Source: Physcia stellaris (Eukaryota; Ascomycota; Lecanoromycetes; Caliciales; Physciaceae). From it: 64,000 nt of DNA. The notes beneath the pieces are model-generated. The model was given only the letters and a program-made list of their open reading frames with translations. It made no database searches and was not told the DNA's origin. The stretch is from the NCBI GenBank assembly GCA_018902385.1, contig JABSSW010000035.1:1-64000 (forward strand), given 5' to 3'. Below, piece by piece: positions 1 through 58,682 of the stretch. Position 1 is the stretch's first letter; each line of letters starts with the position of its first letter. The translations under genes and the position numbers were made by a program.

Positions 1-3000
1 ACGAATTCGAACGATTTCGATTGACAATATGAATTTGTTGAATTTATCGTTGATCGAATTAATAAAATGATTGAAATTGATTTTTTTCGAAATCGTTCGA
101 ATTTCGATAATCGAATTGTTTGACGAAATGCGAATCGCATTTTCGAAAATTTCTGAATTTTTATTTTTACAATTTGTCAAACATCTTCGTAATATTTTTT
201 TTTTCGCGAACGTCGTTTCGACGATTCGTTGTTATTGCGTGATTTGAAAATTTTGTTGAAAATTTTGTTGATCAAATTGTATGATTGCAAAATTCAGAAA
301 TTTCACGATCATCATTTTTCATTTTTTAATATTCTAATGTCATTTCGACGTTCGATAAAATTTGACGACAATTTTTGAAAATGTTTTTGACACGATTCAA
401 TTTTTCATGCGATGTAAATTTTGACTGTAAATAACATCGAAAAAATAATAAAAATTGAATTGTTGAATAAAAATCGTGAAATCAAAAACAAATGAATGAA
501 AATTGAATTCGTGACGTCAAATGTTAATCGAAAATAGTTTCGATTAATGTTAACATGACGATTTTTTTTCGAAAACGACGACGATTCGCTGAAAAATCGA
601 ATTCGTTGACGACGATTTGAAATATTGAAATTAACGTTTTGAACGATTTTGAATTTGTCGTCGTGAAATGAATACGATGAAAATCGTTCATCACGTTGCG
701 AACATTATCGAATTTTTCGTTATCGACATAATATCACGTTCGATCATGAAATCAATTCGATCAATTGACACGATATTGAAAACGATTGTAATGATATCGA
801 AATTTCAAAATATCGTTCATTTCTCATTCGAAATTCTCGTTAACTATGACGAAATCGAAAAATTCGTTAATTTGATTTTCGAGAAAATCACGAAAATTTT
901 TGCGAAAAAATCAACAATGAAACACATCGTAAATTTGCATAATTTCTGATAATTCGAATCGATAAAAATTGTTTATACGTTTTAACATTTTGTACGATTT
1001 TAATTTTTTGTCATCAAATTTGTCAAATAATTTGATCGTTTTGATGTTTCGTCGATTCAAAAAAACGAAATTTTTTTTAACGTATTTCACGATTTTTCGA
1101 TGTTTGTTGATTTGAATTGTTATACGCTTTTGAATCATTTTTGCATGATTTCGTACGTAATTGAAAATATTTTGCATTGTGTCGATGATATTTTCTGTTT
1201 TGACGATCAAAAATCGCTTTTTCGTTGTAACATACGAGATAAAATTTGATGAAAAGTTCATGCGAAAATGAAAATTCTTATTGATGAAAAATGATGACAA
1301 TTTTGTTGTTGCAAATATCGCGTTGTTGTTTGCAAATTCGATTATGAACAATCAAATATTTTAATCGTTTTGCATGTAATTGCAATATTGTCGCAATTGT
1401 TTTTCGATATTTTGATTGATTTTTTCGATTTGTTCATCGATTTCTGAATGAAAAACGATAAAAAATTTACATTTGATGTCGAGAATTTTGCAAAATGTTT
1501 GTCAAACGAACGATATAAATTGAAATTTTCGATTTGACGTTATAAAAAAATAATTCATGCGTACGAAATACGTAATTGATAAATATTTTGATTATGATTT
1601 TCGCGTTTGTATTTTCGTCGTCGACGATGCAAAACACGTAATGACGTTTTTTGTTAAATTTGTCAATTATCGTGCAAATGACGTTATGATCGTAAACGTC
1701 GAACAATTCGATAATAAAATTCATAAATATGTCGATTCGACGTTGCAAAAAAATGATCAAAAAAATGAATAAATCATTTTTTCGATTTTTGAAAATTTTC
1801 GTACGTTGATATTTATAACAATTACGTACGTATCGACGAACGAATTTGCGCATATTAAATCAATAATAATCGCGACGTATAAAATTTTTCATACGATTGA
1901 AATTTGAATGTTTCGAAATCGAAAATTCGTGAATTTTTTTGAAAAAATCAACGAATAAAAAAACATCGACAAACATTCATAATCGATCATTTCGATATAA
2001 AATTTCGTTTTTTTCATTGCAATTTCGTAAATCGATTTCATTCATTGAAATGAAATTTTGTTCGATAATTTCACGATAAATCGTGCAATCATCGTCAATT
2101 TTGTTGACAATCAAAATTCGTTCGTAAATAAATTTGTCAAATTTTATCGCGTGAATTTCGAATCGCTTCGAAATAAACAATATTTGTTCTCGATATTGAT
2201 GTCGCTCGTCAATATCGTTTTTTGATCATGAATCAAACATACGAATCAAAACATTTGTTTTAACGTTTTGAATTTCGAATTGAAATTGAATGACAATATT
2301 GAATTTCGAAAAAGTTTTTTTTTTTTTTTTTGTTCAACGAGTTTGACGAAAAATTAATTTTTTTTGACGTCATGAAAATTTTCAAATTTTTGTAATCGAT
2401 GAAAATTTTGATCGATTTTTCAATGTTTTCAAATTCAAAACGTCGATATTTTAAACAACGAATAATGATCAGCAATTTTTTGTTATAAATTTCGTAATTG
2501 CATTCGATTGAAATCATGTTACGATTATAAAAAACAACAAAATGCAAAATTTTTTCGTCGTCGTATTGAAATAACATTTTCGCATTGACGTAATCAAAAA
2601 AATCGATTTTAAAATGATTTGTTTGATTCGATCGTAATGTCGTAATATGAAAATTTCAATCATCGTTTTTTTGAAAAAATTGAAAATTTTTCAATTTCAA
2701 CAATTCATTCGAAATTTTACGAATTTTTGATCATTCGAATAAAAATTTAATTTTTTTCGAAAAATCACGAATGAAACGTCGATAAAAATTGACGAAATTC
2801 ACGAAAATTTGCATTTTTTCAAATTTGTAAAACGTTTTCAATTGACAATGATTTTTATTTTTTGAATTTATGCGAAAATCATTCATCGATAATATGACGT
2901 TCAAAAATGTTTTTTTTTTGAAAAATTCGCATTTTCAATATTCATTTGTAATTCGATTTTTTTGAATTTTTTCAACATTTTACGAACGTGAACGATGTGC

Positions 3001-6000
3001 TTTTTTTGAATTTGTTGTAAATAAAAATATCATTTAAATAAATTTGACAAAAATCGTTCAAAAATTGAATAACAAATCGTTTATGTAATGTTGTCAACTC
3101 GCAAAATTCGTTGATCAATTCGAAAAATAATATTCGATATTTGTATGATTTCATGAAAATGACGAAAATGATGAATTTTTCATTTTTTTCATTCATTCGA
3201 AATTTGTTGAAAATCGATATAATATTCAATTTGATCAAATATTTGCAATTTTGCATTTTGATCAAAAATTTTTCGATCAAAAAAATGAAATATCGATTGC
3301 GTTTCGTGATGTGATTAAATCGTCGATAATTTCACACACAAACGTAATTGATCGTTTGATTTGATTGCAAATAAAACGAACGAAACGTATGTCGTTTGAT
3401 TGAATACGATAAAATTTTTTTGAAAATTATTTTTCAAATATTTTTGAATTTTTTGAAATTTGAATTCGAACAAAAAATATATTTTGTTTCGAAACAAAAA
3501 ATTGTTATCGTTTAAAAATTCGATTTTGTGATCGTAAAATTCGATACGAAAATAATTGATTAATTTTTTGAAAATCGAATATTTTTGACAAATGTTTGAA
3601 ATATTTGATATTTTTTTCATTATGCGTTCAAAAATCGATTTGATTTGTTCATGTTTCAAAATTTTTTTGATATGACGACAATTTTCAACGATTCAAAATT
3701 TGTTCGCAATGTTTTGAACGCGAAATCGATTTGATTGATCGTAATGAAAAAACATTGCATTTTTTGTTTTTTATTTTTGAAATCGACGAATAAACAAAAA
3801 AAAATTGCTTCAATCATCACGATATTCATCGAATCGTTTGAATTCAATTTCGATGATGAAAAAATTTCGAATTGTTGTTTTTTGATTTTTCAACGTTTGT
3901 TGCGTTGTTTTTTCAAATTTTTTTTTTGATGAATGTCGTTTTCGTAATTGTTGTGATATAATTTTTGAATTATTTGATTCGATGATTGACGATTCGTCAT
4001 TGTCATCGACGTTCGAATGAATTGAACATTCGAAACATTTCGAATCGAATACATTTGATTCATTTTCAATTGTAAAAAATAAAAATTTGATTTTGAAACG
4101 AAATAAAATGATATATCGAAATTTTATCATCGTTATATGTTTCGAATTGTTTTTTTGCGATAATAAAATATCACGACGTCAATTAAATACATTTTATCGA
4201 CGATTTGATTTGAAAATTTTCAAACGTCGAATTTGAACAATTTGATTGAATATATTGTCATGATGATTGCATTTAAACGATTTGAAAATCAATTTATCGT
4301 AAATCATGTTCAATATGATTTCATGTTTGTTTATTCACGATTTTTTTAAAATTATCGAATGATTATTCAAATTGATGATTAACAAAAAAACAATCAATTC
4401 GAAATGCAATTTTATCGTTAATTTAAAATATATGACATAAATTATTGATAAAATTTGACGATCGTCGAATTCAATCAATGATTTCGATTTCAATAAAAAT
4501 ACGAATTTCATGTTCAACATGTTGCATACAAATTGCGCGATTTCTTTATCAATAAATGCATAATCAATTGCATCAATGTTTATTAAAATTTTTAATTTAT
4601 GTTTATTATCGTTGAATGATAACGTACAATTGATGATTAAAAATCGTTTAATGAAAAAATCAAACAAATTATTATTGTGAATAATTTTTTTTAAAACATT
4701 TATCAATCGCGTTTTTGACGTGAATTGTTAATTTTTCGAATCAAAATCGTTCGATTCGACGATTAAATTTATGTAAAATATTTGCATTTTATGTCAATGA
4801 CGTTTTTGATGTTTGTGATTACGTTCGAACATTTTTTCAAACGTGATTCGAATTTTTCACATGTGAAACATTTGTTCGTGACGATCAATTTGTCGATCAT
4901 CGAATCACGAATTTTGATTTCAACGTTAAAATGAAAATGAACTGTAAATTTCACGAAAAAAAAATCGAAATGTGACAAATTTCGTAAAAAACATCGAAAT
5001 CGAAACGACAAAAATTGATTTGAATTAAAACAATTTAAAACGTTATTGACGTGACGCGATTTTTTTTTTTCGAAAATTCGATTGTCGATTGTATATTTGT
5101 TGCAAAATGATTCGAATTTCATCGAACGTGATAAAGTCACGTGAATATACATTCATCGTTTTTTTCAAATTTCAGAAAATTTTGTTCATCAATTTTTCGA
5201 TTTTGATGATTTCGTTATAATCAATTGAATTGTTAAAACGAAAAAAAATGAAATAAAAAAATTGAAAATTTTGAATATTCATAATCAATGTTCGAAATTG
5301 ATTACGCATATTGCGTTTGAAATCAAAATTTTCGTAAATAATATTCAAGAATTTCAACATCATATGTCAAATTTTGAAATGATTCATATCAATATCACGA
5401 ATCGATTGTATGTGATTATCGACATTATTTTCAATTTAATCAATCACAATAATGATTGCGATCATGTTCGTGTCGTAATAATCAACGTTGATCGTCATTT
5501 TATCGTATATTTTTGTTTTTTAAACACGTCAAATGAATTTTATTTCATCGATAAATTTAAAAAAATCTGAACGTGTTTTGAAACGTCGTTTGTTTTTTTG
5601 AAAAAAATTAATTACGTTGATTTCATCGTCGTTTTTTTCATCGTCGACGTCAAAATTTCGTGCACGATCGCGAATTTTGATTAGCAAAACGTCGTAATTT
5701 TTTTTCAAAAAAATGTAATTTTTTTGTTTGATTAGAAATAAATCACGTTGTTTTTCGTATTCGTTTTTCAAAACATTCAATTCTCGACGAATTTTATTTA
5801 ATTCGACATTCGTATTGATCAATTCGTCACGATCGACGCTGACAATATTGTACAAATTTTGATATTGAATCAAAACGTTCAAATAATTGTCACGATCGAT
5901 GCGTAATCGATCAAATTTTTAAAAAATCGACGATTTTATGATTGATTTATCATTTCAATTGATCGATAATGACAATATTCAAAAAATGAATGATTTTTTC

Positions 6001-6680
6001 ATTTTTTACTTTTATCATAACGCTTTTTTTTTTCAAAGAAATCGATCGTTGACATAAATCGACGACGTTTGAATTAATCAACGAAATTTTCGTCAAAAAA
6101 ATTGTCGTTAATTTCATACAACATACGATTCACGTTGACGCGTAACGTTTTGAAACGTTGTTTCATCGAAATAAAAAATTCGAAAAAAGTTGTTTCGTGA
6201 TGACTTCGAATCATAATTGAAAATGAAAAATTGAAAATGATAAAAAAAAAAAAATTAATCGAATCAATTTTCGTCTTTTATCGTCGAAAACTTCGTCGTT
6301 GTTTCGTCAAAAAAATTTTCAAATCGTTTGTTTGATCAACAAACTTTTCGTCGTTTGTTCGTCAAAAAAGTTTGATCGATTTGAAATTTTATTTTTGAAC
6401 GTTCGCGTATCTCGACGAGCGATAAAAATTGAAAATTTATTGTAATATCATGAATCGTGTTTGAATAAACGTATTATTGATTAATTAAACGAAAACAATA
6501 AATTTGCAAAAACAAATATGTACAAAATGATGAAATTGTAAACAATATGCGAACGTCAAATTTCAAATCACGCTAATTTCGTCAGAAAATTAGAACATAA
6601 TTCGATTTAAATTTATTTGTTCAATCATTTATCATATCGTTTATTTATTTGTCAAACTTATCTGTCAGACATGCTCGTAA
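1..6680 (-). mobile_element. Ty3/Gypsy LTR retrotransposon fossil, older copy, cut by left edge
   Basis: Read on the minus strand, recognisable parts follow Gypsy order: gag with a CCHC-like knuckle (about 5,880-4,770), a retropepsin-like segment (about 4,700-4,335), reverse transcriptase (about 4,130-2,970), RNase H (about 2,580-2,180) and integrase with its C-terminal part (about 1,900-910). Family identity comes from conserved strings such as YNREMIS-like and CNYEIY in RNase H and RHYV in integrase. A weak LTR-like sequence, distantly similar to the 210-bp LTRs of the neighbouring element, lies at about 6,440-6,680. The other end would be outside the window. The copy is broken, with dozens of breaks, and is more heavily mutated and so probably older than its neighbour. 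Confidence 0.8.
6440..6680 (-). repeat. Probable diverged 5' LTR of the left Gypsy fossil
   Basis: This stretch shares scattered words, in the same order, with the LTR at 15,430-15,639, including an ATGTA...GAAATT core and a final CTCGT-AC motif. It lies just upstream, in the minus direction, of the gag region, which is where a 5' LTR should be. The boundaries are approximate because both copies are heavily mutated. Confidence 0.4.
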
Positions 6681-7069
6681 CAAAATGATTGATTATTTCG
6701 ATAAATTTCGATGACGTTCACGAAAATTCTGAAATTTTTGCGAAAACGAATTTTGTCGACGACGAAAAATTCTGTTGAATAAACAATGTTTGTCGAGATT
6801 GAATAATTAATAATTGACAACGATGTTGATTTAAAACAGTTAATTACGATATTGTTCGAACAGTAATTTTTGTTGATGTATTGACAGAATAAATTGAATC
6901 AATTGTATTGATATAATCAAATAACTCAAACGCAATGCGAATGATTTGTGATGTGAAAACAATCAAAATAACTTAAATGAAAATAATGTGTCGTATTGAA
7001 ATTTGAAATAAAATGATGATAAACAAAACAAAAAAAAACGAATTGAAATTTTCAAAACTTGTTGAACAA

Positions 7070-8452
7070 ATTATTTGTTGATGAAAAAACAAATAAAATC
7101 GTTAAATTGAATTGTTCGAATCAAACAGAAATTCGATAATGAATTGATTTTCAAATATGTCGTCATTGAACAATGACAATGCGAATTTTCACGAAAAATC
7201 GAAATGTTCTGAATATTTGAAAGAAAAATCAATCGTTTTTGCTGAAAATTGTAAAAAAAATGAAAAATTTGATTGAAATTTTCATTTTCAACTAGATGTT
7301 TGTTGTTGATGATTGATTTCGATCGACACGTCGAATCGAACGAACAGCAAAATTTTCGACAACGACAACGAGAAAAATATTGATGAACAAATGATTTGCG
7401 TACAAAATGCAAAACTGTTCGAAAACTGATACGTTAAAAGACAAAAAATGTTGTCGTTTTGTTTACGTACAAATCATTGTTTGAATGATGCTATCAATTG
7501 TTATGCGTAAAATGTGAATTGATTGATGTAAAAATTATGAACGACAAAATGTCAATTTATGTACAATAATTGCGAGTCAATTGTTTGATCATCATTCATT
7601 TAATATGAAATGACGACAGAATTTTTGTCAAAAGTCAAACAAAATAATGTTGTCATATTTCATATCATTTAATTTGATTTTGTGTCATAACATTTAACAA
7701 ATCGAATGATTCGAAAAATGATTTCATAAACAAATCATTCATTTTTGCGATGTAAAATATGCTCATTATTCGCAATTTCGTTTAGAAAACATAATTGATC
7801 GTTTTTTAATAATATTAAAAATAACATGTATTCGTTGCGACATATTTGAAAACGTTTCAAAACGATTCGTTGAAATTTCTTTTTGTTGATATTATAATGT
7901 TTTAAAATTTTCGAAACAGTGAATTCGTTGCACACAATGTTTCAATCATCGAACAAATATATTATCATTTCATTCAAATATGTTCACGATCGATTCAGAA
8001 AAAAATTTTTCAATCTTTTGATCACGAAAACGTCGATTAAAAATTTTGAATCAAAACGTTCATGAAAAACGATATGTTGATCGTATTTTTTCAAATTTCG
8101 TCGAATTTTTTTGACAACGAAAATTTCACATTTTTCGATGTTTCGTATAATTTCGATAAACAAATTTCGATGAATATAATATTCAATGCGATTTTTGCAA
8201 ATTTCGTTGAAAAAAAAAAACATTGTTCACGACGATGAAATTTGCAACAACGAAAAAAATTGCGATCGAAACGATCACGATGTTTAATCGTTAAAACGTG
8301 TTGAAACATTGATTTGAACGATTTACGAACAATTCAGAAAAATGTGTGAATTATTGAAATCGAAAAAATCGATTTTATCGATGTTTTATGCAGAAATAAA
8401 AAAAAAATGCATTTCAGATTTTCGCGCGAACGCGAAAAAATGCAAATCGAAA
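7070..8452 (-). mobile_element. Tc1/mariner-like DNA transposon relic
   Basis: Minus-strand reading gives two recognisable transposase parts. Upstream (about 8,210-7,990) is a helix-turn-helix-like stretch with VKKIRRNLKKYDQH, matching the VRRIRRNLREYG pattern of fungal mariner transposases. Downstream (about 7,930-7,740) is a segment matching the first catalytic-aspartate block: LCFLNEIANNEHILHRK against the usual LVFLDESAANERTLHRK, with the catalytic D mutated to N. The remaining DDE part toward 7,070 is too degraded to assign firmly. The right terminus is placed at 8,452, next to a TA, because similarity to a second copy ends there. No left terminal repeat was found. The element is non-functional. 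Confidence 0.65.
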
Positions 8453-8458
8453 TATAAT
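8156..8458 (-). repeat. Transposon-end repeat, copy A (paired with 16,066-16,369)
   Basis: About 300 bp match the segment at 16,066-16,369 in the same orientation. Differences are dominated by G-to-A and C-to-T in this copy. In the last 27 bp the other copy is GC-rich while this one carries about nine G-to-A or C-to-T changes, all at GpG, ApG or CpC, with every CpG and CpA kept. The segment is the 5' end of the Tc1/mariner-like element, including the start of its transposase region. Confidence 0.75.
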
Positions 8459-8504
8459 TTCTGCATGAAACATCGATAAAATCGATTTTTTCGATTTCAA
8501 TAAT
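8350..8504. repeat. 155-bp quasi-palindrome at the transposon end
   Basis: Arms of 48 bp (8,350-8,397 and 8,457-8,504) are inverted copies with a single mismatch. They flank a 59-bp spacer that is itself partly self-complementary (GCATTT...CGCG against CGCG...AAATGC). The left arm lies inside the transposon and has a counterpart near 16,260-16,305. The right arm lies just outside the presumed TA-flanked terminus and has no counterpart at the second copy. It could be a fold-back rearrangement or a truncated head-to-head second insertion. Confidence 0.8.
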
Positions 8505-8812
8505 TTATCATCATCATCGATCAATTCGTGATATCATGATTACACATGTTCGAACATATTGTTAGAATCACACATTTGAAAATTGAGTCGTAACGATTGT
8601 TTTAATCGAATACAACAACATCAAAAACAAAAAACATGCGATAAAAAAACAAAACGAAAAAAGAATTTGAATGAATTGTTTTTGATCGTAAAGACTTTAA
8701 AACACGATGTTTAATCGAGTTTACGAAAAATCGAAACATACATCGATTTAAAGATTTCGAATTCGTGCTTTTTGATCTGAAATAAAAAAATGAATAAAAA
8801 AATCAATTGCGA
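8505..8812. other. AT-rich spacer without recognisable gene
   Basis: I see no reading frame, RNA gene or element end here. It separates the Tc1/mariner relic from the left LTR of the next element. A short TTCGAATTCGTG word near 8,757 recurs near 15,753, on the far side of the LTR element. Confidence 0.5.
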
Positions 8813-9022
8813 AATGTGAGATGCTATGCAGAGATATAATACTACTACATAACTACACGAGAATATCGAAATGAAAAGCAAATACATGAAATCTGCAAAA
8901 ACATATGTAGAAAATTTGATTTTTTGAATGCGTCAAGTCGAATCTCGACTCTAACATTCGATGTGATAAAATAAAAATGTTAATTCTGTCAAATGTTGAA
9001 TTCGATGTACGCTCGTCACATT
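8813..9022 (-). repeat. 3' LTR (210 bp) of the Gypsy fossil
   Basis: It begins AATGTGAGATGC and ends GCTCGTCACATT, giving 7-bp inverted termini. It is equal in length to the right copy and about 94% identical, and is preceded by GCGA. Confidence 0.9.
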
Positions 9023-9179
9023 ACTTTTCGTTTTTTCTCAGTTTCGTTTCGAAACGATCAATTGAATTCGTTTTTTTTTAATGATGAGCGCTTTGCGCGA
9101 TCTAGATGCGTTGTTGAATGACGTTGAATTGAATGATTGATGAAATGAAAAAATAAATTCGAAATGCTGTGAAATCGAT

Positions 9180-9680
9180 TTCGCTCGCGAAATCGATTCG
9201 TCAAACATCGTGAAAACATCAAATCGACTTACGATGAGATGAACAGTTTGATCATGTTAATAGAATCATCGTAACAATGTTTAACGTCTCGATATTTTCG
9301 CGTATGCGAGAGTTCGTGTGTACATTGCATGCGATAAAGCGTGAATGTAATGAATGTTCTGAAAAATAATCAATTCATACGTTTCGTAAAAAATAACTTC
9401 GACGAGCATTAATAAATAAGAAATTGTGAATTTGATTTAGCGCGTCAACAATTTTGAAAATTTTTGCAACATCAAATTGATATCACGAGACGAGCAATTT
9501 GAACAAATCGATAAAATTTTTATCATCATGATTAACGCGTTGATGTCATCGCATATACGACGTCTGATTCGTACATTGCATTCAACGAAATATGCATGTA
9601 CTAGATTTTCTGAAAAGCAAATATTTTGAACGAATTTTACAGATAGCTTCGCGTGTCATTAGTAAACAGTTGAAAATCTT
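9180..9680. repeat. Diverged tandem duplication of about 250 bp
   Basis: Two adjacent blocks (about 9,200-9,420 and 9,455-9,670) share an ordered series of words: a GCGTATGCGA / GCATATACGA pair, GTACATTGCAT, TTCTGAAAA, and a closing TTCG...CATTA. They lie between the 3' LTR and the integrase region, where many Gypsy elements carry 3' untranslated repeats. Divergence is high, so boundaries are approximate. Confidence 0.5.
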
Positions 9681-12600
9681 GTTGACGAACTCGTAAATGT
9701 TCAATTTTTCTGACAATTTGTTGTTTACTCATATCATTGCATGATATTTTACATTACTATTCATTGTTCAGTAAAATTTGACGACAATTTTTGAAAATGT
9801 TTTTGACACGATTCAACTTTTCATGCGACGTAAGTTCTGACAGTAAATAACGCGAAATAACATGAAAGCGAAAAATCGAAACAAAGATTTTCTGAATCAA
9901 TTTGACAGTGAATCGTAACGAATTCATGTTGACGTCTTTTGATCGATCACAAACGATGTTTACAATTTAATCATTTCGTAAAACAGATTTCGCTGTCTCT
10001 GAATTAGTTTCGTGAAAAGCATTCACGATGTTTTGAGCATTTTGAAATTCGTCATCGTCGACATAATATCAAATTCGATTATGAGAATTTCAGCTCGATC
10101 ATTTGCAACGATATTGAAGACGATGATAATGATATCGAGATTGCAATATATCATCGAGTTTTCATTCAAACATTTCGTTTGCGATAATTGATTTTGAAAA
10201 ATCGTTATGTTGTTTCTTCAGCGAGTCTCTAGAATCTTTTCTTAATAATCAAAAATGAAAAACTGAATGAATGTGCATATCGTTGAGCAATTTCAATTAT
10301 GAAATTCATCGATATATTAACTCATCGTTGACTAGAAATCGACAATGAAATCAACAGTTCGTGACGATCATCGTGTGAAAATTTCGATCGCTGACACTTG
10401 TGACAATTACGAATATAACGTTTGATGAGTAGTCTCATACTAAATCAATAATAATAGCGTTTAATGAGTTTCTCAATACGATTCATGCTCGAATGTGCAC
10501 AGAAAAATTGATCGTGAGCGTCACGAATTATTTTCATCATAAAATCTAGTTGATCGAATATTCATAAATTTTCGTTTTTAAAAAAAATTTCGTCTCGATC
10601 GAAGCAATTTTGCAAATTTACGTTTTCGTTGATGATATGTTCATCGATCAAAATTTGACGATGATTAGTACAGTTTTCGTTCTTTCGATTGATTTGCATG
10701 ACGCGTTCGTACAAATCGTTTTGAACGTCAATCGAACATAGTTGCAATCGAGAAAGTGACAACAAAACTTGTTTTCTATAAAATTCACGTTCGTCGTTTT
10801 CGACGAGACGAAATTCAGACATTTTAGTCAAAACATTCGCTTTGACGTTCTTGATTTCGAATTGATATTGAATTTTGATGTTGTAATTCGTCAAAGTCTC
10901 GACTCAACGTATTTGACGAGAAGTGAATTTTTTGTTTGTCATAAAGATTTCTAGATTTTTGTGATCGATGTAGATTTCAATTGATTCATCGATATTTTCG
11001 AATTCGAATTTTCAATGTTTCAGACATCGAATAATGATCAAAAGTTCTTTGTTATATATCTCGTAATTGCATTCGACAGAAATCATCTTTTTGTTGAAAA
11101 AAGCTATCGAATGAAAAATTTCGTCGTCGTCGTATTGAGATAGAATTTCATCTAGACATCAATTTGAAAAATCGATTTTCAGAATAGTTTTACGATTGCG
11201 ATCGTAATGTCGAAAAATTGAAATTTCGATTATTTGTTTTTTCAAAGTTTCGAATGTTTCGTTAGCGAAATCGATTCATTCGAAATCAATTTTCTTTTTG
11301 ATCATTCGAGTTAAAAGTTTGACGAATTTCGAAAACGTTTTGATGAAACGTCGATAAAAATTGCAAAAATTCACAAACGTTTGCATTTTTTTGATGCATG
11401 TTGAGCGAATTCAATTGACGATGTTTTGTATTTTTTTGAAATTCATGCGTAAATTTTTTGTCGATAACATGACTTCTAAAAATGAGATTTTTGTTTGAAA
11501 GAACTCGCACTTTTTGATATCGATTTGAAAATCAGTCTTTTTCAACTTTTGAAAAATTTGAGTGAAATGTCGCTCATGTTGCTTTCGAATTTTATTGTAA
11601 ATGAAAATATCATTCAAATACATTTGACAGAAATGATTAATGTATTCAAACAACAAATCATTCATGTAGTGCTGTCAACTGACTGAATCATTGATAAAAT
11701 CGAAAAACAACACATGATATTTGTAGATGTCTAGCGAACATATGAAAATAGTAAAATTTTCGCTTTGTGAATTCATTCGAAATTTATTGAAAATCGATAT
11801 AATATTCAATTTGAACAAGTATTTGCAATCGATAACTTTAGCAAAAATTTTTCAATTAGCGAAATAGAATAATTATTACGCTTGATTATGACGTTCAGCT
11901 TTCGATAATCGACACACAAACGAAATTGTTCGTTCGATTTGACGACGAATAAAATGAGTGAAATATAAAACGTCTTGTTTGAATTGATAAATTCTTTTTG
12001 AAAATTATCGTGTAAATATTTTTGAAAAATCTCGAGTTTTTTAGACGATAAAAAATAGATTCGATTTCGAGACAGTCGATTCGAACTCTTCGTCAACTCG
12101 ATTTTGTGATCGTAAAATCTATAAGAAAATAGTTTGTCGATTTCGTTCGAATTGAATACATTTTCGAATCGTTTAAAAAATTCAGAAATTTTACGTTCTA
12201 ACTTCTCGACGATTGTTTTCATGATTTTAAAAACTTTTTTGAGATTCAAATCAGAATCAGTTTCTATTTTAGTTAATTTTTCTTTGACGTTGTCAATAAT
12301 CTCGTTCAATTTCTTCATGATCAACGAGAATGTTTTGACTCTTTTTTTTTCTTCTTTAAATTCGACTAGCGATTGAAAAATCGTCGCGTCAATAAAAGCG
12401 ACATTCAACGATGTATCAGAATCGAGATTTTGTTCGTCATTTTTCATTTCGAAAATTGTAATTTTGAATCGTCGATTAGATCGACGCGTAGATTTTTGAC
12501 TATGTCGAGTTTTTTTATTGATGCGTTGATCAAAGTCGATCTTTGAATTTCGCGTATGATTTTCAATTTTCGTTTTTTTTTGAAAAATTTATTTGAAAAA

Positions 12601-15429
12601 TAATTTTTGTCTATTTTCTCAATGGCATGTTTGAAATCTGAAATCAAAAATTTTTTTATTGATTGTTCGTTTTTTTTCGAGTTTTTCATCGTAGAGCGAG
12701 AAGAAGTTACTCGAGAAAATGTCGAGACGAATCGTCTTTGAAGTATTTGATATTTTTGAACGTTTGTCGACGAAAACGACGTTAAAAATCGTTTCGAAAA
12801 TGATAAATAGAGCGTTTTATTCGATTGCTGAGTCGAATTAAACAACTTTTGAAATATAGACGAACGTGAAAACAAAAGAAAATTTCAACGTGATCACAAT
12901 GATTTGAAATGAAATAACATTCGTCATTGATCATATTGAAAATCATTTCGTGTTTGTTCATTCAAAATTTTTTAAAATCAGCGAGTGTTGTTCTATTCTG
13001 ATGATGAACAATGAAACGAAAAATTCTGAATGATTTTGTATCGTCATTTTGAGCAATATTTGATGAGTAATAGATTTGATTTTCGTTTCTTCGAAATTAA
13101 AAATTTTTTTAAATCGAAATAGAGAGATTGAAATTAATTCTAATTTATGACATATTTTTTGCGCAATTTTTTCATTAATGAAAACGTATTCAGAAACATC
13201 GATATCAATTAAATCATGAATCATGATTTTTTTATCATTCGAAAACAGATTTATCTTCTTAATTAAAGATTTACAATGAAATTCGTTAAAGATGCTATGT
13301 TGAAAATTTCGTGAACAAATTTTGATAATCTTCTTCGCGTTTTCGAAAAAGATTGTTAATTTTTCGATTCAACGTCGAATGTGATTGAAACATCGAAATT
13401 TATACTATCGTCGTCGATGCTTGAAAAATTATCGTTGATCAAAAAAATGATTTGCAAATTAAACATTTTTTGTTTAATCAAATTGTCGATTCAATTATCA
13501 AATGATTTGTCAAAAATGCATTTTTTTCATCAATGATTTTTTTCATCACATTTTCGACATTTCTTTTTCAGTTTAAACAAATTAGAACGAGCAGTGACAA
13601 TTTTATACGTCTTTTTTTTTAAAAAAGTCGTATATCTAATTTTCAAATTTTTTATGTATTGTTCATTGCGACGAGCTCGAGAACTTAACTGACTGATCGA
13701 TGATTTGTCTTTAGTGAAAAAAATGTTGATTTTAGCATCGTTGTTTTTGATGCGACGATGTTTGTTATTCATGATTTGAAATTTGCGAAAATAATCGTCA
13801 AAAATTTCATAATCGTTCAGAACAACGTCGACGTGTTGAAATTTCGTTGTGATTTTTTCTTCGAAATCGTGAATTTTGTTTTTTTCATTCTTTTTGAGCA
13901 ATTGATTGATCAGAAAAATGAATTCGAAATAAAACTCGTTGAAAAGTTCAATGAATTTCATTTTCAAATCATCGTATTGGCGACGAACGTTTCGAAAATG
14001 ATCAACATCGATATAAATGTCGTTCAAAAACTTGAAAATTTGATCAAATGATTCGAAGAAATTGCGTTTAATTTCACGTCGAATATCGATATGCTTCGCA
14101 GATTTTTTTTTGTTCAATCAATCATTGCAAAGACTTTTTTGAATTCATCGACGTATCAATCGAAATTGATTTTCAATTTATCAATGCATTTATTCTTTCA
14201 GATATCGTAACGAATATATTCAAATGTATTGAAATTTTTATGCTCAAAGAAGATAGAAAAATCAAAATGTTTGAGCGAGCGCGTCTTAGAATCAAATCGA
14301 GCTTTTTCAACAAAAAAGTCAGATTGTTTGAACGAGCGCTTTTTAAATTCAAAACGAGATTTTTTTTCGAAGTTGAAAAATTTTTCGAGTTCTGATAATC
14401 TAACAGTTTTTTTTCGTTGTTTATTTTTATTTTCACGAATTCGCTGAACTTTGAAAAATTCATTACATTGAGTTTGAGCAGCAGAGATTTCGATTTTGAC
14501 GACACGCAAAATCTCGTTGATTTCATATTTTTTTTTATTATGATTCGAAATTTTGATTTTCATGTTTTTTATTTGAAGATTTCAAATTCGAATGACGATC
14601 ATTTTTCGATTTCGATTTCGTCGAAAAATTTCGAAGATAGTTCATAGCTCGTCGAGATGATTGACGATCATTGATTGAAATTGTTGTTTCGAAAAATGTT
14701 TATCGAATTAACGATTTTGAACGATTCATTTTCATCAAACTCATCGTCATTCTGATTAAAGTTTAAAACAAAAAAGATGTCGATGATATGTTGCTCGAAA
14801 TCTGTGATTATTCGATCAAAAACATACACGTTCAATTGTGTGATTTCGCTAAACAGTAATCGATTTTCCAGATTGACTTCGAAGAGAGAATTTGAAGAGA
14901 TCATGATTGTGAACTGAAATCGAATAATTGTTGAAACAGAAAAGAAAAATGAACAAAGCAATGATTTAAATAAATCTTGATGATTGAATTTCATTCAGAG
15001 TGACAGATTCGATGTGATGTTGAGTGAAATTTCTAGATGTTTGTTTATGATGAAACAGATGAGTGTTGAATAAAAATGTTTGTTTGTTGATGTGTTTTTT
15101 GATAATTTGATTTGATGATTTTCTGATTTTCAAACACGAATGTTTCGTCAGAAGTGATAAAGAAAAAAAGTTTGTTGTATTGTGAATCGAGATTATCGCG
15201 TGAATTCGTCTGTTCTGAACGTCCTTTAAGGCAAAGCAAACGAATCTATTATGCTTCGTTTCTTTCAATTCACAACGAGTCTATTATGTTTCGTTGTTTT
15301 CGTTGAATGATCAAGATCAAATTGAATCTATTATGTTTTTATTCGTTCACTGAATTTAACTGTAAAAAGCTTTGTTTATTTGAATGCTCGCGTATCATGA
15401 ACGAGCATGAAAAAAAATGATTTCGATAT

Positions 15430-15639
15430 AATGTGAGATGCTATGCAAAAATATAGTATTACTACATAATTACACGAGAATATCGAAATGAAAAGCAAAT
15501 ACATGAAATCTGCAAAGACATATGTAGAAAATTTGATTTTTTGAATGCGTCAAATCGAATTTCGATTCTAACATTCGATGTGATAAAATAAAAGTGTTAG
15601 TTTTGTCAAATGTTGAATTCGATGTACGCTCGTCACATT
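15430..15639 (-). repeat. 5' LTR (210 bp) of the Gypsy fossil
   Basis: Right-hand copy of the terminal repeat. It has the same termini and length as the left copy and is followed by GCGA, matching the four bases before the left LTR. The element's leader and gag region begin immediately to its left, reading on the minus strand. Confidence 0.9.
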
Positions 15640-16065
15640 GCGAGCGAGAAATAGAAAAAAGAAAAACGTTGTTTTACATCAAAATTGATTTGATTTTTTC
15701 GCGAATCTCATGCAAATAAAATCGAAAATCGAAAATTTATTTTGATTCAAAAATTTCGAATTCGTGATTTTCGATTTGAAGTTAAAAAACGTTATGCGAC
15801 AAAAAAAACATCGAAAAAATTACATGATTTTGCATTCAAATTGTTCTGTTTCTCTGCGAACATTTCATTGAATACATAGAGTTTATTCATTGCATTCAAT
15901 TCGCATGCAAAGATTCGAAATTCGTGTTTTGTACAGAAAAAATAAATCTATTCGTCATTTTAAATGATTTTCTTTTCATCGATATCTCGAACACATAAAG
16001 CCCATGAATCATTTTTTAATGAATCGTAATATTTGCATGCGAGAAATGATTTCTAGTCGTTTTCG
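15640..16065. other. AT-rich spacer without recognisable gene
   Basis: Only degenerate AT-rich sequence is visible. Two copies of a TTCGAAATTCGTG-like word occur near 15,753 and 15,885. No element boundary could be recognised. Confidence 0.5.
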
Positions 16066-16364
16066 AATAGACAAGTCTCGATGAATATAGTACTCAATGC
16101 GATTCTTGCAAATCTCGCTGAAAAAAAAAAAATTGTTCACGACGATGAGATTTGCAACAACGAGAAAAATTGCGATCGAAACGATCACGATGTCTAATCG
16201 TTAAAACGTGTTGAAACATTGATTTGAACGACTTACGAACAATTCAGAAAAATGTGTGAATTATTCAGGTCGAAAAGATCGATTTTATCGATGTTTCATG
16301 CAGAGATAAAAAAAAAAATTGCATTTCAGGATTTCGCGCGGGCGCGGGAAGATGCAAGCCGAGG
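16066..16364 (-). mobile_element. Truncated Tc1/mariner-like end abutting SRP receptor gene
   Basis: Second copy of the transposon end at 8,156-8,452. Minus-strand translation near 16,125-16,080 gives SEICKNRIEYYIHRDL, the same transposase N-terminal string as in the longer copy. The terminus (GCGCGGGCGCGGGAAG...GCCGAGG) is followed by TA, the expected mariner target. Its last 45 bp keep normal GC content while the rest is AT-rich, so the mutational front stops inside the element. Only the transposase 5' end is present. Confidence 0.6.
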
Positions 16365-16477
16365 TATTTCCAATTTCAGCCTCGGCTCGCCTTACCACTC
16401 CCTCCCGCCGCTTCACAAATCCACTGAGCGCTTCCTTCTTCGTTACTGGGTACCTGAAGGCATCGATCTCCTGCGAA

Positions 16478-17421
16478 ATGTCTTGGACGGACCCACAAAG
16501 CTGGTTGACTTCGATGATGGGACCGTCCCCTTTGGCAATAGTAGTCACATTGATTGTCGCACTTTCAATACCATTATTTCTACATTTGGTCATCTATCGC
16601 TCCACATCCTCCAACACTCTTCCCTCCTTCCTACTCATAGGACCTAGCGGTGCAGGCAAAACTGCATTGCTTACCCTGGTATATTAGTCTGTTGTCTGAG
16701 AGCAGAATAGTGGCTAAGGATATCGTAGTTTGAACAAGGACACCATGTTGACACCAGACCTTCTCAGACTCCGCTCTCTGTTGAGGTTTCACTTCCAGTC
16801 AAGACTAAAACAGCGTCTTCAAAGTATCGTTCGGCCAATGATCCTTCATTGCAAGTTCACAAAAGATTCTTACTCGCTGACACTCCCGGCCACGGAAAGC
16901 TGCGATACCATGCTTTCGATAGTGTCGTCAAGCCGCAGAATCTGCAGGGCATCATCTTCATGGTAGATGCTGCGGATCTATCTTCCTCTACTGAAGGCGA
17001 TAGCAACGAAGGTTTGCGTCAAGCAGCGGAGTACCTTCACGATCTACTACTCCTTCTCCAAACAAGATCTACAAAGTCCAAATCCTCCAAGGCACCCAAA
17101 GAGCTTCCAGTCTTGGTCGCTGCCAACAAACTTGACCTGTTTACAGCACTCCCAGCTCCACTAGTACAGAAAGCATTGGAAGCAGAGATTACCAATGTCC
17201 GCACTTCAAAAAGCAAGGGTTTGCTGGATTCTGGCATTGACATGAACGAAACCGATGTTGGTGAAGAGAAAGATTGGCTAGGTGATGGGGGTGAAGGAAC
17301 TTTTAAGTTCTCACAAATGGAAGAGGTCAATGTATTCGTGACGGTTTTAGGCGGTAACGTTGTAGGGACTGACGGCCCTGACGTTGGGAAATGGTGGGAT
17401 TGGATTGGAAGTAATCTTTAG
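16478..17421 (+). CDS. SRP102: Signal recognition particle receptor beta subunit
   Basis: Small membrane-anchored GTPase that tethers the SRP receptor alpha subunit to the ER membrane for co-translational targeting. Two exons (16,478-16,678 and 16,729-17,421) give 297 residues, close to the usual length. An N-terminal hydrophobic segment (about residues 15-38) precedes the P-loop GPSGAGKT. The G3 box is DTPGHGK and the G4 box NKLD. The start is the first Met giving a membrane anchor directly before the GTPase domain; in-frame Mets further upstream fall in the repeat-derived leader. The intron interrupts the coding sequence just after the P-loop. The gene begins only 113 bp from a transposon end, so its promoter must lie at least partly in the AT-rich block. 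Confidence 0.92.
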
Positions 17422-17681
17422 GGCCCGGATTACCAAGTTGCCCAGTCTCCCAATTCGACCAGCAACACTGCGAGGGCGCTCAAGTTTGGAACTTTCAACG
17501 AGAAGCCAGCATAGACGAGGCGCCTTACATTCTCGTTGGATCACTGAGAACGAGCGCGAACAGTATGCCAAGGAATGTTCCTCGTGTATGGAGAGCGGGT
17601 TGTTGAACATCCCTCTGTACCTGGAAAGGTCTCTAACACCTCGCTATGTCCGGGAAGCCATGCAATCAATGCAGGTCATAT

Positions 17682-19458
17682 TCATCCCTCTATTTTGCCT
17701 TGTCTGACCAGCCAGCTCAGCAGGTCCACCTTTGTAACCACTGCAACAGGCCGCATGTCTTCTCCGCCGGCTTTTTCCGTCACAACTGCGGCACTATTCC
17801 ATTCGAAGAAGCGACTTAACGCTTTCAGTGGCGTCTCCATTGTGATCTCAACGAATTTTCTTCGCTTCCCTCCGCCAGCTCCGAGGCCATGGCTATCTGC
17901 CTCTCCATTTGTCAACTTATCTCCTTTGGTGGCCGATATGTCGCCTATGTCCCTCGGATCAGTGACGACTTCGCTGATCTTACTAAAGCTGAACATAACG
18001 TCTGAAACTGGGCTGCTAGCCGAGGCCCGTCCTTGGCTAATCCAGCTGAGGAGATTTCCCAGTGTCACGAGGCCTACAAGCTTGCGAGACTTTGGTGCCA
18101 GAACAGGGAGTTGATCGAATGACTTTTCCCTCATGGTTTCTATTGCTTCCGAGCAAGGGGAGTCGGAGGGGATGGTAGTAACAGGCTTCAAGCGGAGAGT
18201 GCGGATAGTGGCGTTCGCAAAGGAATCAGAGGGTTTAGCTGGGAGTGTCGGCGAAGGAGGATTTGTGGCTGGAGGCGTTGGGGGCAAAAGATCGTTGGCT
18301 GCAAGCCAATCGTCGTCGACGAACTGTGAGGGTTTTCAGTTGAGATCTGGGGGTATTCGCAGTCCGAAGTTCTCGTACCTTACTGAGATAGCTCCGAATA
18401 CTATCCGGCAAAATTACTACGACCACATCCCCCTTTCCCAACCCCAGTTCTTTCACACTTTTGACCATGGCAGCTATCGCACTGCCACTACTACCACCGA
18501 CCAGGAGTCCCTCTTCCGCTATAAGTCTCCTCGCATACGCGAAGGCTTCCCTGTCATCAGTCTTATACCAATGATCCACGGTTTTCTGATCCAAAACATC
18601 TGGAACGAAGTCGTATCCGATTCCCTCAACTTTGTATGATTCATTGGCGTATTGCTGATTCAGCGTGGTGGGTAATGCTAATATACTCCCATATGGATCC
18701 GCTGCTACAATCTTCACTTCTGGATTGTGCTTCCTCAATCCTCTCGCGAGCCCGGTGATGGTGCCTCCTGTACCAGCGCCGGCAACTACAGCTGTGATCT
18801 TACCCTCTGTCTGCGTCCATATCTCCTCAGCGGTTCCATACTCGTGCGCTAGCGGATTGTCGGGATTGCCATACTGATTAAGGATATGCGCGTTGGGTAT
18901 TTCTTTCTGTAGACGCCGCGCTACACCAATATGAGATTCGGGAGAGTCGAAGGCTGCCTGAGTAGGAGTCCGGATGATAGTGGCATTGAGGGAGCGCAAG
19001 ACGGCGACCTTCTCAGGGGACATCTTTTCAGGCAGGGTGATGATTGTCTTGTAACCTGGGCTGTGTAAGCATTGCGGTTTCGATACCGGTGGTGTAATTA
19101 CTTCGTACCTTTTACGGCAGCGACCAATGCTAGACCAATGCCACTGTTTAGCCCCTCTCTATTCAGTATCTGGCTTTGCTCTTTCCCGACGAACTTACGT
19201 GTTCCCACTTGTGGGCTCAATAAGTGTATCCCCAGGTTTGATTCTCCCACTGCGCTCAGCTTCTTCAATCATTCGTAGCGCGATGCGATCCTTGACACTG
19301 CCGCCGGCATTGAAAAACTCTAGCTTTGCGTACACCGTGGCTTCTATACCAAGGCTTTGAGGGAGCTTGTTCAGTCTGACCATAGGCGTGTTTCCGATCT
19401 GTTGCGTTACTGTTTCCATGACCACTGGGGGCAGCTTTGGTTTCGTGAGAGTGGACAT
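17682..19458 (-). CDS. CYS4: Cystathionine beta-synthase
   Basis: PLP enzyme condensing serine and homocysteine to cystathionine, the first step of reverse transsulfuration; cytosolic. Four exons (19,458-19,199; 19,143-19,109; 19,055-18,379; 18,323-17,682) give 537 residues. The PLP lysine lies in GGSVKDRIA (K56). SGNT and the [10 protein letters not shown] phosphate-binding loop are present. The C-terminal region holds two CBS-domain repeats (around PCSEAIETM and [12 protein letters not shown]) separated by a low-complexity insert. No N-terminal haem-binding extension is seen, as in yeast Cys4. The 35-bp second exon is supported by exact frame continuity through [12 protein letters not shown]. 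The gene is convergent with SRP receptor beta and divergent from the cation exchanger. Confidence 0.95.
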
Positions 19459-20475
19459 GCTGAGGACTGCAAGGACTAAAGTGGATAGTCAGGAGTGATT
19501 TCTTCTAAGACGAAGTTTACAAGAAAAAGAGCAAGCCTGTACCTGGGTTGATACTTATGTAAGGTACCTTACCTTAGTAGTGCATGGGCAGCAGCTTTCT
19601 TTATCGCTCAAGCCGAGGCTAGCCGCTGATTAGGACTAAAGGCTATGGTCGAAAAGTTCACAGATGCATCAAGTCCTTCACAAAGCTCGGCGCACAGCCA
19701 GACTTGGTCAGGTATTCTAAATCAAAGGAAAACATGAAGCATCTACCTCAGGATACGAGCTCATTCGATCTACGTACCCGACGAGTGGCAAGGGACAGGT
19801 ACGCCTAAAAAAAGAAACAGTAGATTGTAAAAAGATCCGTGTCGTATCATGGTACCTCCGTACGATGGTACAGGTTGGAAAAGTATTGTACTGTACGTAG
19901 TCATGATAATAAGGCGGGTTTTCGCACGGGTACCTGAATGATCATCGTCGTGGCCAGCGGAGCCAAGTGAAAGCTTGGATACGATAGTAATCTTCTTTCT
20001 CATAATCTTCCACACACGCTTGAAGCGCGCCAAGCATTGGCCGCGAGCGCGCGATCTTTTTGTTTGGGGGAACAGCAAGATGGCAGCTGAAAACTTGCTG
20101 AAGTGTCAAATCTCCAGCAGCAACAGCAGGCCTTGCAGCTCGTCAAAACTTCCATTGGTTGCAAAATGTCTGTGCGCTGAGGCTTCACCAATTCGTCAAA
20201 TGACTGTAGGCCTGACTCCTTGGCATGCGCCCAACCTGGAACGCATCTTGCCAAATTACCTGATTCCCTCCTCTCCAAGGACCGTCTCTTTACTTACTAC
20301 AGCTCCCACTGCATTCCTTGTATACGTTGATCACTATCACTCTCAAAGCCTTACTCAAATCACCCTCCAACAAGAAAGGTCCCCGCATCGCGAATCGACC
20401 ATCTCCCTTGGCTGCACCCTCTTGAACCATAACCCTCCTTCACGCCTGCAACTAGCGTTCTAGATAGTCGGCAAG
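19459..20475. promoter_or_regulatory. Divergent intergenic region, CYS4 / cation exchanger
   Basis: About 1 kb between two divergently transcribed genes, expected to hold both promoters. A plus-strand open frame at 19,975-20,463 is probably fortuitous: it resembles no family I know and lies where the exchanger leader should be. No clear TATA element or known operator was recognised. Confidence 0.5.
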
Positions 20476-22566
20476 ATGTCTGGGCGACACCGGAACACTA
20501 CTCAAGCTCCTATGGGGGATGGTATGCAAGATATCGAGATGTCGGACTCTCCTAGCCATGGACATTCCAAAGGGCGGAAGAAGAGTGGCTTCCACCTCCC
20601 GAATTACGATCACTTGCACGTGCGTGTTCACTCATCATTACCCACGTCTTTACAATCATCGCTGACTTCTGCATAGGATGGATACAATCATGTGAGCTGC
20701 TTTGGCTTGACCAAGAAACTGGAACGAAAAGCTGATCTGATCGAAGAATGGGCACAGAGTTACAAAGGGCATACACCCAGTCAGTCCTTTCCAATCTTTT
20801 ACGAGCTCGTAGATACTCCTACTGATTTTGGTCAGGATGGCGAGTCTGGTCGTCGTGGAGTACACCCTTGGCACTTCCTCCGAATTGGCTTCCGAAGCAC
20901 CAGCACAGCTTCGATGTTGGTCAATGCTCTATGGCCTTTCGTACCTGCGGCTATCGCAATCCACTTCGCTCGACCGGATCTGCATGTCTGGATTTTCGCC
21001 CTCAATTACATCGCCATGATTCCCTCAGCCAATTTGATAGGGTTTGCGGGGCAAGAGCTGGCAAGAAAATTGCCAAAAGTCTTGGGTGAGGTCCCTCGAA
21101 AAGTCCAAGCCGAGTTGCCGCTAATTCGATTAGGTGTTATCTTGGAAACGTTCCTCGGAGGTAAAGCATTCAAGAGAGACAACCTTTGAATTTTGGGTTA
21201 ATGGAACGATACAGGGATTGTTGAAATTATCCTCTTCACTATACTTATCGTCAAGAGCGCTGACAGCCCGGACCCGACAGAAGCTCTTCCCGGTACCACT
21301 AACGTGCCGATCATAAGAGCAGCGATACTTGGGTCAATCCTTGCCAACCTACTCCTATGTCTTGGGTTTTGCTTCTTCGTTGGAGGAATGCGAAGGGACG
21401 AGCAGGAATTCAACGAAGCTGTGAGCGAGGTAGGCAGCGGATTGCTGCTTGTTGCTGGCTTTGGGCTTCTAATTCCGTCTGCATTCTTCAACTCCCTCTA
21501 CGGCGGCGTTACCGGAGGCGACTTTTCCCTTCCATCGCTCGAGGATAAAACGCTGAAGATCAGTCGAGCAACTTCGATAATCCTGCTTATAGCCTTTTTC
21601 ATCTATGTATATTTCCAAATGAGGTACTTCTCTTTTCTCTAATCAGTCGAGACTTTTTGCTAAATAAGAATTTCAGGAGTCACCAAGGGATATACGACGC
21701 TGTGCTGGAAGAGGACGAGAAACGGGACAGTGATCGGCACAAAGATCTGAAGAAAGCCAAATTTACTCTCACAGAATGCATTCTCGCCTTGCTCCTAGCG
21801 TTAACATTCGTCGCCCTCTCTGCAGACTTCCTAGTACACGAGATTGAGTTCATCGTACAAGATTATGGTATTAGTGACTCATTCATGGGCTTGGTGGGTA
21901 CAGTCTCCTTCAACGTTCTGGACGAAGACTGACTACCGCATCCCAGATACTGGTGCCCTTGGTGGAAAAATTAGCAGAACACTTGACCGCCATTGATGAA
22001 GCTCACGACAACCAGGTAGGCCATGTGAGCCAAGCCTTGTTGTTCCTTTCTGACCATCCTAGATGAACTTTGCACTCGCACACGTACTCGGCGCCACCAT
22101 TCAAACAGCTTTGTTCAACTCCTCGCTAGTCGTTATAATTGGCTGGGGACTTTCCAAGGGAATGGTATGTGTCTGGAGTAATATAACTAATCGACCATAT
22201 ATCTGCTAATCCTTTTTAGGACCTTAATTTCGAACCTTTCAATATTATCGTGTTGATCCTTTCCATCATTGTGGTAGGCAACTTCCTACGGGACAAAAAG
22301 TCGAATTACCTTGAAGGCGCACTCTGCATCCTCGTCTATGTTATTATAGCGGTAAATACTGAGTTTTCCAAGCTAAGTGGCTCGCGCAGCTGATTTGGCT
22401 ATAGATTGCAGCATTCTACTACCCTAATCCTAAAGAAGCAGAACCTCAAGAGGGCGGTGGCTCCGAAGGTCAGGCAGAAGGTGGAGAGGCAACGAGCACG
22501 GCTGAACTGGCTGCGAAAGCAACAGAACATGCCACCGAAGCCGCGCTGCGGTTCTTCCGCGGCTGA
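20476..22566 (+). CDS. CAX-type vacuolar cation/proton exchanger
   Basis: Predicted multi-pass Ca2+ (or monovalent cation)/H+ antiporter of the CaCA superfamily, probably vacuolar. Eight exons (20,476-20,619; 20,677-21,160; 21,215-21,623; 21,677-21,893; 21,947-22,015; 22,063-22,164; 22,220-22,351; 22,405-22,566) give 572 residues with every junction in frame. Two hydrophobic halves flank an acidic loop (YDAVLEEDEKRDSDRHKD). The alpha-repeats are non-standard: the first is ETFLGGIVEIILF and the second LVPLVEKLAEHLTAIDEAH, where classical CAX proteins have GNAAEH. The variant resembles the Vnx1-like branch as I recall it, though yeast Vnx1 is longer. The C-terminus is a Gly/Glu/Ala-rich tail. 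Family is confident; ion specificity is not. Confidence 0.88.
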
Positions 22567-23085
22567 ACGACTTATCTTTGAAAGGTTCCATTGCAGATTC
22601 CTCAGGAGATGAGTGCTTATGATAGCTTTTGTATGCTTAGTTCGCTATATGGGGAGTTTTTTACGTTCTTGTATTATGAGCATTGTAAATCATCATCTGA
22701 CGCATAGCCTGGCGTTGCTGGATGCAATTCGTAGCAAATTATAGCTTAGCGTCGAGTTACTGCTCCCATGGTTTCTACATTTCTTCCCAAAAGTCGTCCC
22801 TACGTTCATGTGCCGAGTCCTTTCAATCAGTCTATATACCGCTATGCCCTAATTCTCTCGAGGGACAGCGATCTGCGTGGGAGTTCACCAAGACGGCGCA
22901 ATACCCATTAAAAAGGGAACGATGCATCCGCTAGTTGACTCGAGCCCGGGCGTGTTTTTCTCGAAGCGTGGGTATCTCGCACAAGATCACCCAGCCTGAT
23001 CTCCAGAGTTCAGACCATTGCTAACCTGAAAGCTGTGTTGCAACCCTTATCAGCACTGCCCCTACTCGAGCCAGTGCATTGACCA
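22567..23085. other. Convergent intergenic region
   Basis: Separates the 3' ends of the exchanger and the Sfk1-like gene. No coding sequence or repeat is recognised; both transcripts should terminate here. Confidence 0.5.
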
Positions 23086-37415: not shown

Positions 37416-37692
37416 GGACAGTCCGAGGGGTCAAAATAATCCACAAATGCTGAAATCTGTTCCATAAAGATCTAGGGTTGAACTTAGATGTATGATATCT
37501 AGGGTTGAGCTGACGCGACCCTCTTTTCCACTGTTCGTGACCCTTCTTACTAATTACTCTAGCTTAGGATTTTGGTATCAACGAATGATATATACATGGC
37601 ATAGAGAATGGCTTCGAATCCTAAGATATGCTCTAGGCTTGGGTCACCATACCAGGAAGGAGAGTGGTGGGCAACGACAGTTCCATCATGAA

Positions 37693-58584: not shown

Positions 58585-58682
58585 TTGGGAACGATGAAGG
58601 GCCAATGATAGAGAGAGCCACCTACTGCACACGGCACAAACCGCCAAAGAGAAGTTGATAACAAGATGAAACCGACTTTTAT

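Follow-up and report, generated by a model that had tools for sequence, protein, structure and literature searches.

The 64,000-nucleotide window analyzed here (positions 1–64,000 of contig JABSSW010000035.1, or C35) comes from the lichen fungus Physcia stellaris, whose assembly comprises 43.97 Mb in 147 contigs. It was made from Nanopore and Illumina data on a mycobiont culture raised from ascospores (PMC7513301). A mutated repeat block occupies 1..16320 and reaches the contig start; it is recognized by its dinucleotides, its GC profile and its border. Within it, almost every C that stood before C or T appears to have been changed, nearly the opposite of the CpA preference usual in repeat-induced point mutation (RIP). 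The remainder (16329..64000), with CpC odds of about 0.9, is unique and unmutated and carries ordinary genes, among them UCH/DUF3517, ICMT, PQQ and Endonuclease_NS.

The dinucleotide pattern is real beyond doubt. Positions 1–12000 contain no CpC and no GpG, where 193 and 251 are expected from the base counts, and CpT and ApG reach about a quarter of expectation (139 and 145 versus 564 and 620). CpA and TpG, on the other hand, are slightly high (645 and 852 versus 544 and 643), and CpG is more than three-fold high (737 versus 220). The loss of CpC and GpG is nearly complete across the whole block, with just four CpC and three GpG in 1–16250 and eight occurrences of either in all 16,320 bases. 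The loss of CpT and ApG, by contrast, is graded, being strong in 1–8500 (51 and 40 seen, 388 and 424 expected) and weaker in 8501–16250 (194 and 250 seen, 382 and 422 expected). An earlier note, made by eye from the letters of the window, had described this depletion alongside plentiful CpA and CpG, and the counts confirm it, including in its two example stretches, where the base after C is almost always A or G: in 1–180, A 4, C 0, G 15 and T 1, and in 1861–1980, A 7, C 0, G 9 and T 0. It had also placed the end of the block correctly, at about 16,320: the change-point falls at 16,303 (support 16,230–16,303) and CpC and GpG are common from 16,329 on, which puts the start of normal DNA at about 16,303–16,329. 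GC per kb is 0.23–0.33 in 1–16000 versus about 0.45–0.54 past 17,000. Low GC by itself is not the cause, since the CpC odds are 1.16 and 1.29 in two AT-rich comparison contigs of other origin (L059 and L060; GC 0.30 and 0.33). Base composition alone, which the note had named as a possible undoing of its claim, is rejected by these contigs together with the expected counts.

The block is made of long terminal repeat (LTR) retrotransposons. Copy 1 (172..6682, minus strand) consists of the internal part and one LTR of a mutated element related to an unmutated one on contig C12 (family A). It matches 13 other places, each over about 4.6–6.6 kb and at 85–93% identity, and C2:1321220-1327821 and C47:238974-245590 match copy 1 and the C12 element alike. 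The strand given is that of the reverse transcriptase as judged from related copies, in which RVT_1 lies on the strand opposite to the DNA match. The 237-bp LTR (6446..6682) matches again beside the 172 end of other copies. Copy 2 (8813..15639, minus strand) is diverged, aligns colinearly with copy 1 at offsets of 8569–8628, and carries direct repeats at 8813–9022 and 15430–15639 (94%). A further direct repeat lies outside it, at 8211..8407, with its partner at 16121..16317 (94%), where the mutated DNA stops. Just before copy 2 there is an inverted repeat (8349–8397 and 8457–8505) with 49-bp arms, 98% complementary, and a 59-bp spacer. Copy 2 also holds an open reverse-transcriptase relic (11809..12588, minus strand) of 260 amino acids without a single Pro, Gly or Trp. 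A Pfam search with this relic made no reverse-transcriptase call; its identity comes from homologues, several of which carry PF00078.

Does the pattern recur elsewhere in the genome? From 20 of the 147 contigs, the initial 10 kb was divided into 1-kb windows, 200 in all, of which 158 had a GC below 0.35, four were intermediate and 38 had a GC of at least 0.42. (Contig starts are repeat-biased, and 158 of 200 cannot be taken as a share of the genome; going by the published G+C content of 43.3%, the mutated part may be put, very roughly, at a quarter of the genome.) The 158 AT-rich windows have median odds of 0.0 for CpC, 0.13 for CpT, 1.27 for CpA, 3.65 for CpG and 0.45 for TpA. Of these windows, 115 contain no CpC at all and 143 have CpC odds under 0.1; for CpT, 156 have odds under 0.7, while CpA odds fall below 0.8 in one and CpG odds in none. 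Some of the 15 windows with CpC odds of at least 0.1 hold a border, and two loci look less mutated: L022 (C40:1-10000), AT-rich with 4–13 CpC per kb left, and L014 (C10:1-10000), with 7–49 CpC in three AT-rich windows, both with more CpT. Their repeats are perhaps younger or less mutated. The 38 GC-rich windows have a median CpC odds of 0.93. By the usual criteria for RIP (TpA/ApT of at least 0.89 and a substrate index of at most 1.03), none of the 158 AT-rich windows is positive, nor has any a positive composite index; one GC-rich window of the 38 satisfies the two named criteria. Positions 1–12000 fail too, with a TpA/ApT of 0.40 and a (CpA+TpG)/(ApC+GpT) of 1.40. That standard indices would call such DNA negative had been anticipated in the earlier note.

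The mutation spectrum was obtained by comparing mutated copies with natural unmutated members of two families, both with ordinary dinucleotides: L037 on C12 for family A (224-bp LTRs, 100% alike) and L039 on C52 for family B (400-bp LTRs, 99.5% alike). Scoring covered roughly 2 kb, starting at the element end, in nine family A copies (21 match rows) and ten family B copies (40 rows). Counting both strands, C-to-T changes in family B affected 2345 of 2442 CpC and 2129 of 2639 CpT sites, but 161 of 2523 CpA and 78 of 2557 CpG sites; in family A the figures were 2706/2977, 1509/2110, 122/2388 and 87/2444. Over the 19 copies, the altered share is thus 91–96% for CpC, 72–81% for CpT, 5–6% for CpA and 3–4% for CpG. 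The earlier note would have fallen had most changes been at CpA; they fall on CpC and CpT, and the CpA preference of classical RIP is absent. As in RIP, the changes are almost exclusively C:G to T:A, each 2-kb copy having 348–546 C-to-T or G-to-A changes versus 8–27 T-to-C changes and 7–54 transversions. Both strands are altered in family B (88% and 87–89%). The 5' base has little effect: in family B the altered fraction is 0.95–0.97 for NCC, 0.76–0.86 for NCT, 0.06–0.10 for NCA and 0.02–0.04 for NCG, and the trinucleotide table of family A is similar. In family B the first C is altered at 0.91 in CCC versus 0.98 in CCA, and in family A at 0.86 versus 0.95, a deficit in CCC that would fit alteration of the second C first, leaving the poorer target CpT.

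L050 on C95 is a partly mutated element of full length (6.7 kb) that shares 81% identity with the reference. It has lost 760 of 981 CpC and 339 of 833 CpT, with 24 of 872 CpA and 20 of 899 CpG altered, and from these part-way rates it follows that CpC is mutated before CpT. The same copy has one-strand tracts of the kind known from RIP. Between 1250 and 2000, four of 47 CpC are altered on the top strand versus 69 of 74 on the bottom, and between 5500 and 6000, two of 25 versus 33 of 39; in one place 20 consecutive top-strand CpC are untouched where 29 of 31 on the bottom strand are altered. None of 2000 permutations reached the observed strand heterogeneity. The borders of mutated DNA are abrupt. 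Nine were picked by eye, of which one (L005) gave no usable change-point, although its rows remain in the outward bins; at the eight usable borders the support intervals span 8–73 bp. Of all C, a fraction of 0.46–0.59 precedes a pyrimidine in each 100-bp bin outside, versus 0.04–0.09 inside, and no outward gradient or spill into the flanks was seen at these eight borders, out to 1.5 kb. Together with the GC-rich windows, this indicates that repeats are hit and unique DNA is spared. (Tandem-like repeats of about 305 bp were also observed at L037 1–899, in mutated DNA adjoining the unmutated C12 element.)

What does this do to the elements? CpA-directed RIP makes TAA and TAG stops from CAA and CAG. 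Here, a 435-codon frame of family B, followed through ten copies (4,295 codons), kept one of 267 Pro, two of 296 Gly and none of 50 Trp codons, along with 308 of 314 Gln and 84 of 99 His codons, and 49 of its 57 new stops are TGG-to-TGA changes. Among 150 scored of 527 candidate RVT_1 matches, the in-frame stops are 250 TGA, 33 TAA and three TAG. For this one reading frame, the element dies by missense changes and TGG-to-TGA stops, not by conversion of CAA and CAG to stops.

The same protein signature occurs in other assemblies. The 260-residue relic had 141 protein matches, and among the 120 listed, 58 are without Pro and Gly, 98 have less than 2% and seven have at least 5%; of the closest 31 among them, all from ENA assemblies, 30 are without both. 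Among 238 methyltransferase hits, used as a control, the median is 12.6%, although the query itself lacks Pro and Gly and its hits are biased that way. Many proteins in the series P0271–P0358 (e.g., P0273 and P0292; JGI and NCBI) are about 405–408 residues long, share 35–40% identity with the relic and contain little or no Pro and Gly, which may reflect the same type of mutation in other organisms. Another related relic, P0249 (423 residues), has 24 Pro but one Gly, as if one strand only had been mutated, at CpC on the non-coding strand. For DNA, no relatives were found among viral contigs, and the genome-contig search gave five weak matches in prokaryote metagenome-assembled genomes, with CpC odds of 0.91–1.29. 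By their protein composition, the relics suggest that the process reaches beyond this genome.

Which enzyme could be responsible? RIP calls for a RID-type C5-methyltransferase, and the genome has two. PF00145 has four matches in the assembly, which correspond to three genes: RID-A (contig C6; 513 amino acids, two introns), RID-B (contig C5) and a DIM-2 homologue (C3), the last scoring 608 bits against the solved DIM2 chain 9bap; DIM-2 methylation thus also has its expected enzyme. The two RID genes were spliced by eye at GT–AG sites, and the resulting RID-B matches the deposited P. stellaris protein G7Y79_00005g016670 at 100% identity across the full query. Both carry PPCQ and EET/EQT motifs, the latter, in place of ENV, being what we take to mark RID. 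RID-B has SPPCQFFSDAHT in common with several lichen fungi, and RID-A reads SPPCQSFSPAQ where most others have HT or KT next. The phylogenetic tree held 43 sequences, nine of 52 having been dropped by a motif filter (lichen sequences among them), and its bootstrap had not settled. In it, RID-A clusters with Heterodermia and four further sequences (91/100), with a stem length of 1.09 changes per site; it appears long-branched, with named relatives that are so far, among these 43 sequences, Physciaceae. RID-B pairs with two sequences (97/95) inside an unresolved set. The earlier note had suggested a divergent RID/DIM-2-type agent and an inspection of target-recognition domains. The homologues are there and make such an agent plausible, but Pfam shows the methylase domain only in RID-A and RID-B. 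A structure model of the Heterodermia RID-A orthologue (P0001; mean predicted local distance difference test score 84.5) matches DNMT1, MET1, ZMET2 and DIM2 chains, with a best template modelling score of 0.65 by query length; it hints at a BAH-like N-terminal part and says nothing on target choice. RID-A is the first candidate, as a lead with about even prospects, and RID-B and DIM-2 are the others.

Apart from its target, the process looks like RIP, and probably it is a CpY-specific variant (Y being a pyrimidine) of RIP: RIP-like, repeat-directed and aimed at CpC, then at CpT, on either strand. RIP acts between fertilisation and meiosis and needs RID. By analogy, the variant would act in or near the sexual cycle as in Neurospora, with a RID-type C5-methyltransferase of altered target as the presumed agent. 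Several observations weigh against so simple an account. In the alignment of 13 copies of the window's family, the columns with both C and T comprise 139 CpT, 118 CpA, 82 CpG and two CpC, and the all-C columns 141 CpG, 88 CpA and no CpC or CpT, although by our own arithmetic pooled per-copy rates of about 6% at CpA and 3% at CpG across 13 copies give about those column counts. The CpA rate of 5–6% exceeds the T-to-C background of about 1%, and a weak activity at CpA is possible. Two unmutated 6.7-kb LTR elements, 96% alike, coexist in the genome (L037, C12:56500-64500, and L038, C5:1163000-1169500), and this counts against the proposal because RIP should act on such a pair; they may be new insertions or may have escaped. 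(C/T differences between them, 5.8% at CpC, 7.2% at CpT, 4.4% at CpA and 4.8% at CpG, amount to a weak CpY excess, which was not used as evidence.) Finally, the 5S rRNA matches, eight in number and dispersed, all score above the family cut-off, so that a length threshold is hinted at, not proved.

Could DIM-2 rather than RID be at work, methylating CpY in heterochromatic repeats, with mutation of the methylated C following through slow deamination or a DIM-2 branch of RIP? The homologue is present, with its 608 bits against 9bap, and Neurospora DIM-2 is described as CpT-preferring in the available part of a recent review (PMC13297926). Here, however, CpC leads, abrupt borders without a gradient outside suit a homology-limited step better than spreading heterochromatin, and slow deamination fits poorly with the single-strand tracts of L050 and the low background of other changes. 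This origin is accordingly considered unlikely, though less so than the remaining ones. Ordinary CpA-directed RIP, or base composition misread as mutation, would account for a block that is AT-rich and repeat-derived, but about 94–95% of CpA is kept, TpA is depleted in the AT-rich windows and CpC is normal in the AT-rich contigs of other origin; it is the least credible of all.

Lichens are exposed to the sun, and ultraviolet light and APOBEC/AID-type deaminases both cause C-to-T changes. Ultraviolet light, however, targets TpC besides CpC and CpT, and the APOBEC/AID enzymes read the 5' base. In family B, TCA and TCG are altered at 0.06 and 0.04, so TpC is not a target, and NCC is altered to nearly the same extent whichever base precedes it. 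Since the 5' neighbor hardly matters and the 3' base decides, both origins were rejected on the neighbor table, and confinement to repeats with sharp borders speaks against them as well, which leaves them very improbable, barring a deaminase that reads the 3' base. The absent 5' rule and the 3'-neighbor rule likewise disfavor the other deaminating path that the earlier note had kept as an alternative. A base-calling artefact, in which methylated C at CpY in repeats is read as T, has to be considered for an assembly based on Nanopore reads, with Illumina data (PMC7513301). It is judged very unlikely: both strands are altered to much the same degree in family B, the patterns are copy-specific with few other errors, L050 has its single-strand tracts, and Pro- and Gly-free relics of related elements occur in other assemblies.

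How does the CpY-specific variant compare with known systems? (The comparisons refer to the available portions of the papers cited.) It shares with RIP of Neurospora crassa and other Pezizomycotina the C:G-to-T:A changes in repeats, the involvement of both strands, strand-biased tracts, the sparing of unique DNA and the presence of RID and DIM-2 homologues. In classical RIP the usual target is CpA (PMC12543289, PMC4352252), whereas here CpC is preferred to CpT and CpA and CpG are nearly spared; TpA falls instead of rising, and the stops are TGA. Reported RIP contexts include CpA, often with CpT, and CpG (PMC4352252, PMC10998396). CpT is a target beside CpA in Botrytis, Sclerotinia, Magnaporthe and Anisogramma (PMC2621366, PMC7882544, PMC4352252, PMC10998396), and CpT-to-TpT has been termed dominant for N. 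crassa Tad1 (PMC2621366) and in RIP-capable control genomes (PMC7882544). Unlike in P. stellaris, CpC never leads and CpA is never spared in the portions of these reports that were available. In Monilinia, CpC-to-TpT double changes occur beside classical CpA-to-TpA changes (PMC8959702); CpC is a target in both, but in P. stellaris the first change at CpC gives TpC, and CpA is retained. The lichen fungus Cladonia rangiformis likewise has large AT-rich retrotransposon blocks with sharp borders and RID and DIM-2 homologues (PMC12542154), and the words CpA, CpT and dinucleotide are absent from the available main text of that paper. Microbotryum and other basidiomycetes also have repeat-associated C-to-T changes, but in a TpCpG or CpG context and without a RID-type gene (PMC4352252); in P. 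stellaris, CpG is spared. CpC- or CpY-dominant RIP was not found in the open-licence literature, the scope of the search. What is new is CpC as the leading target together with the near-sparing of CpA; CpT as a target is not.

A survey of 1,239 fungi published in 2025 found, in its available portion, that RIP-like defences share a preference for CpA (PMC12543289), and the P. stellaris genome is a counter-example. Since its repeats score as untouched by the usual indices, surveys relying on these would under-count the defence. A wider proposal, on which the balance tips slightly toward doubt, is that this is a distinct form of mutator directed at repeats, the work of a divergent RID paralogue whose target has changed from CpA to CpY, and that it strips Pro, Gly and Trp from transposon proteins; it would be common to many lichen-forming and possibly other fungi, and would have been missed by screens built around the loss of CpA and the gain of TpA. 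In a 2026 review, in the part available, in vitro catalysis by RID is entered as undetected (PMC13297926). A natural variant whose target is nearly the reverse, found in a genome that has two RID-type paralogues, makes it testable which factor determines the target of RIP and whether that factor is RID itself; gene transfer into Neurospora would provide the test.

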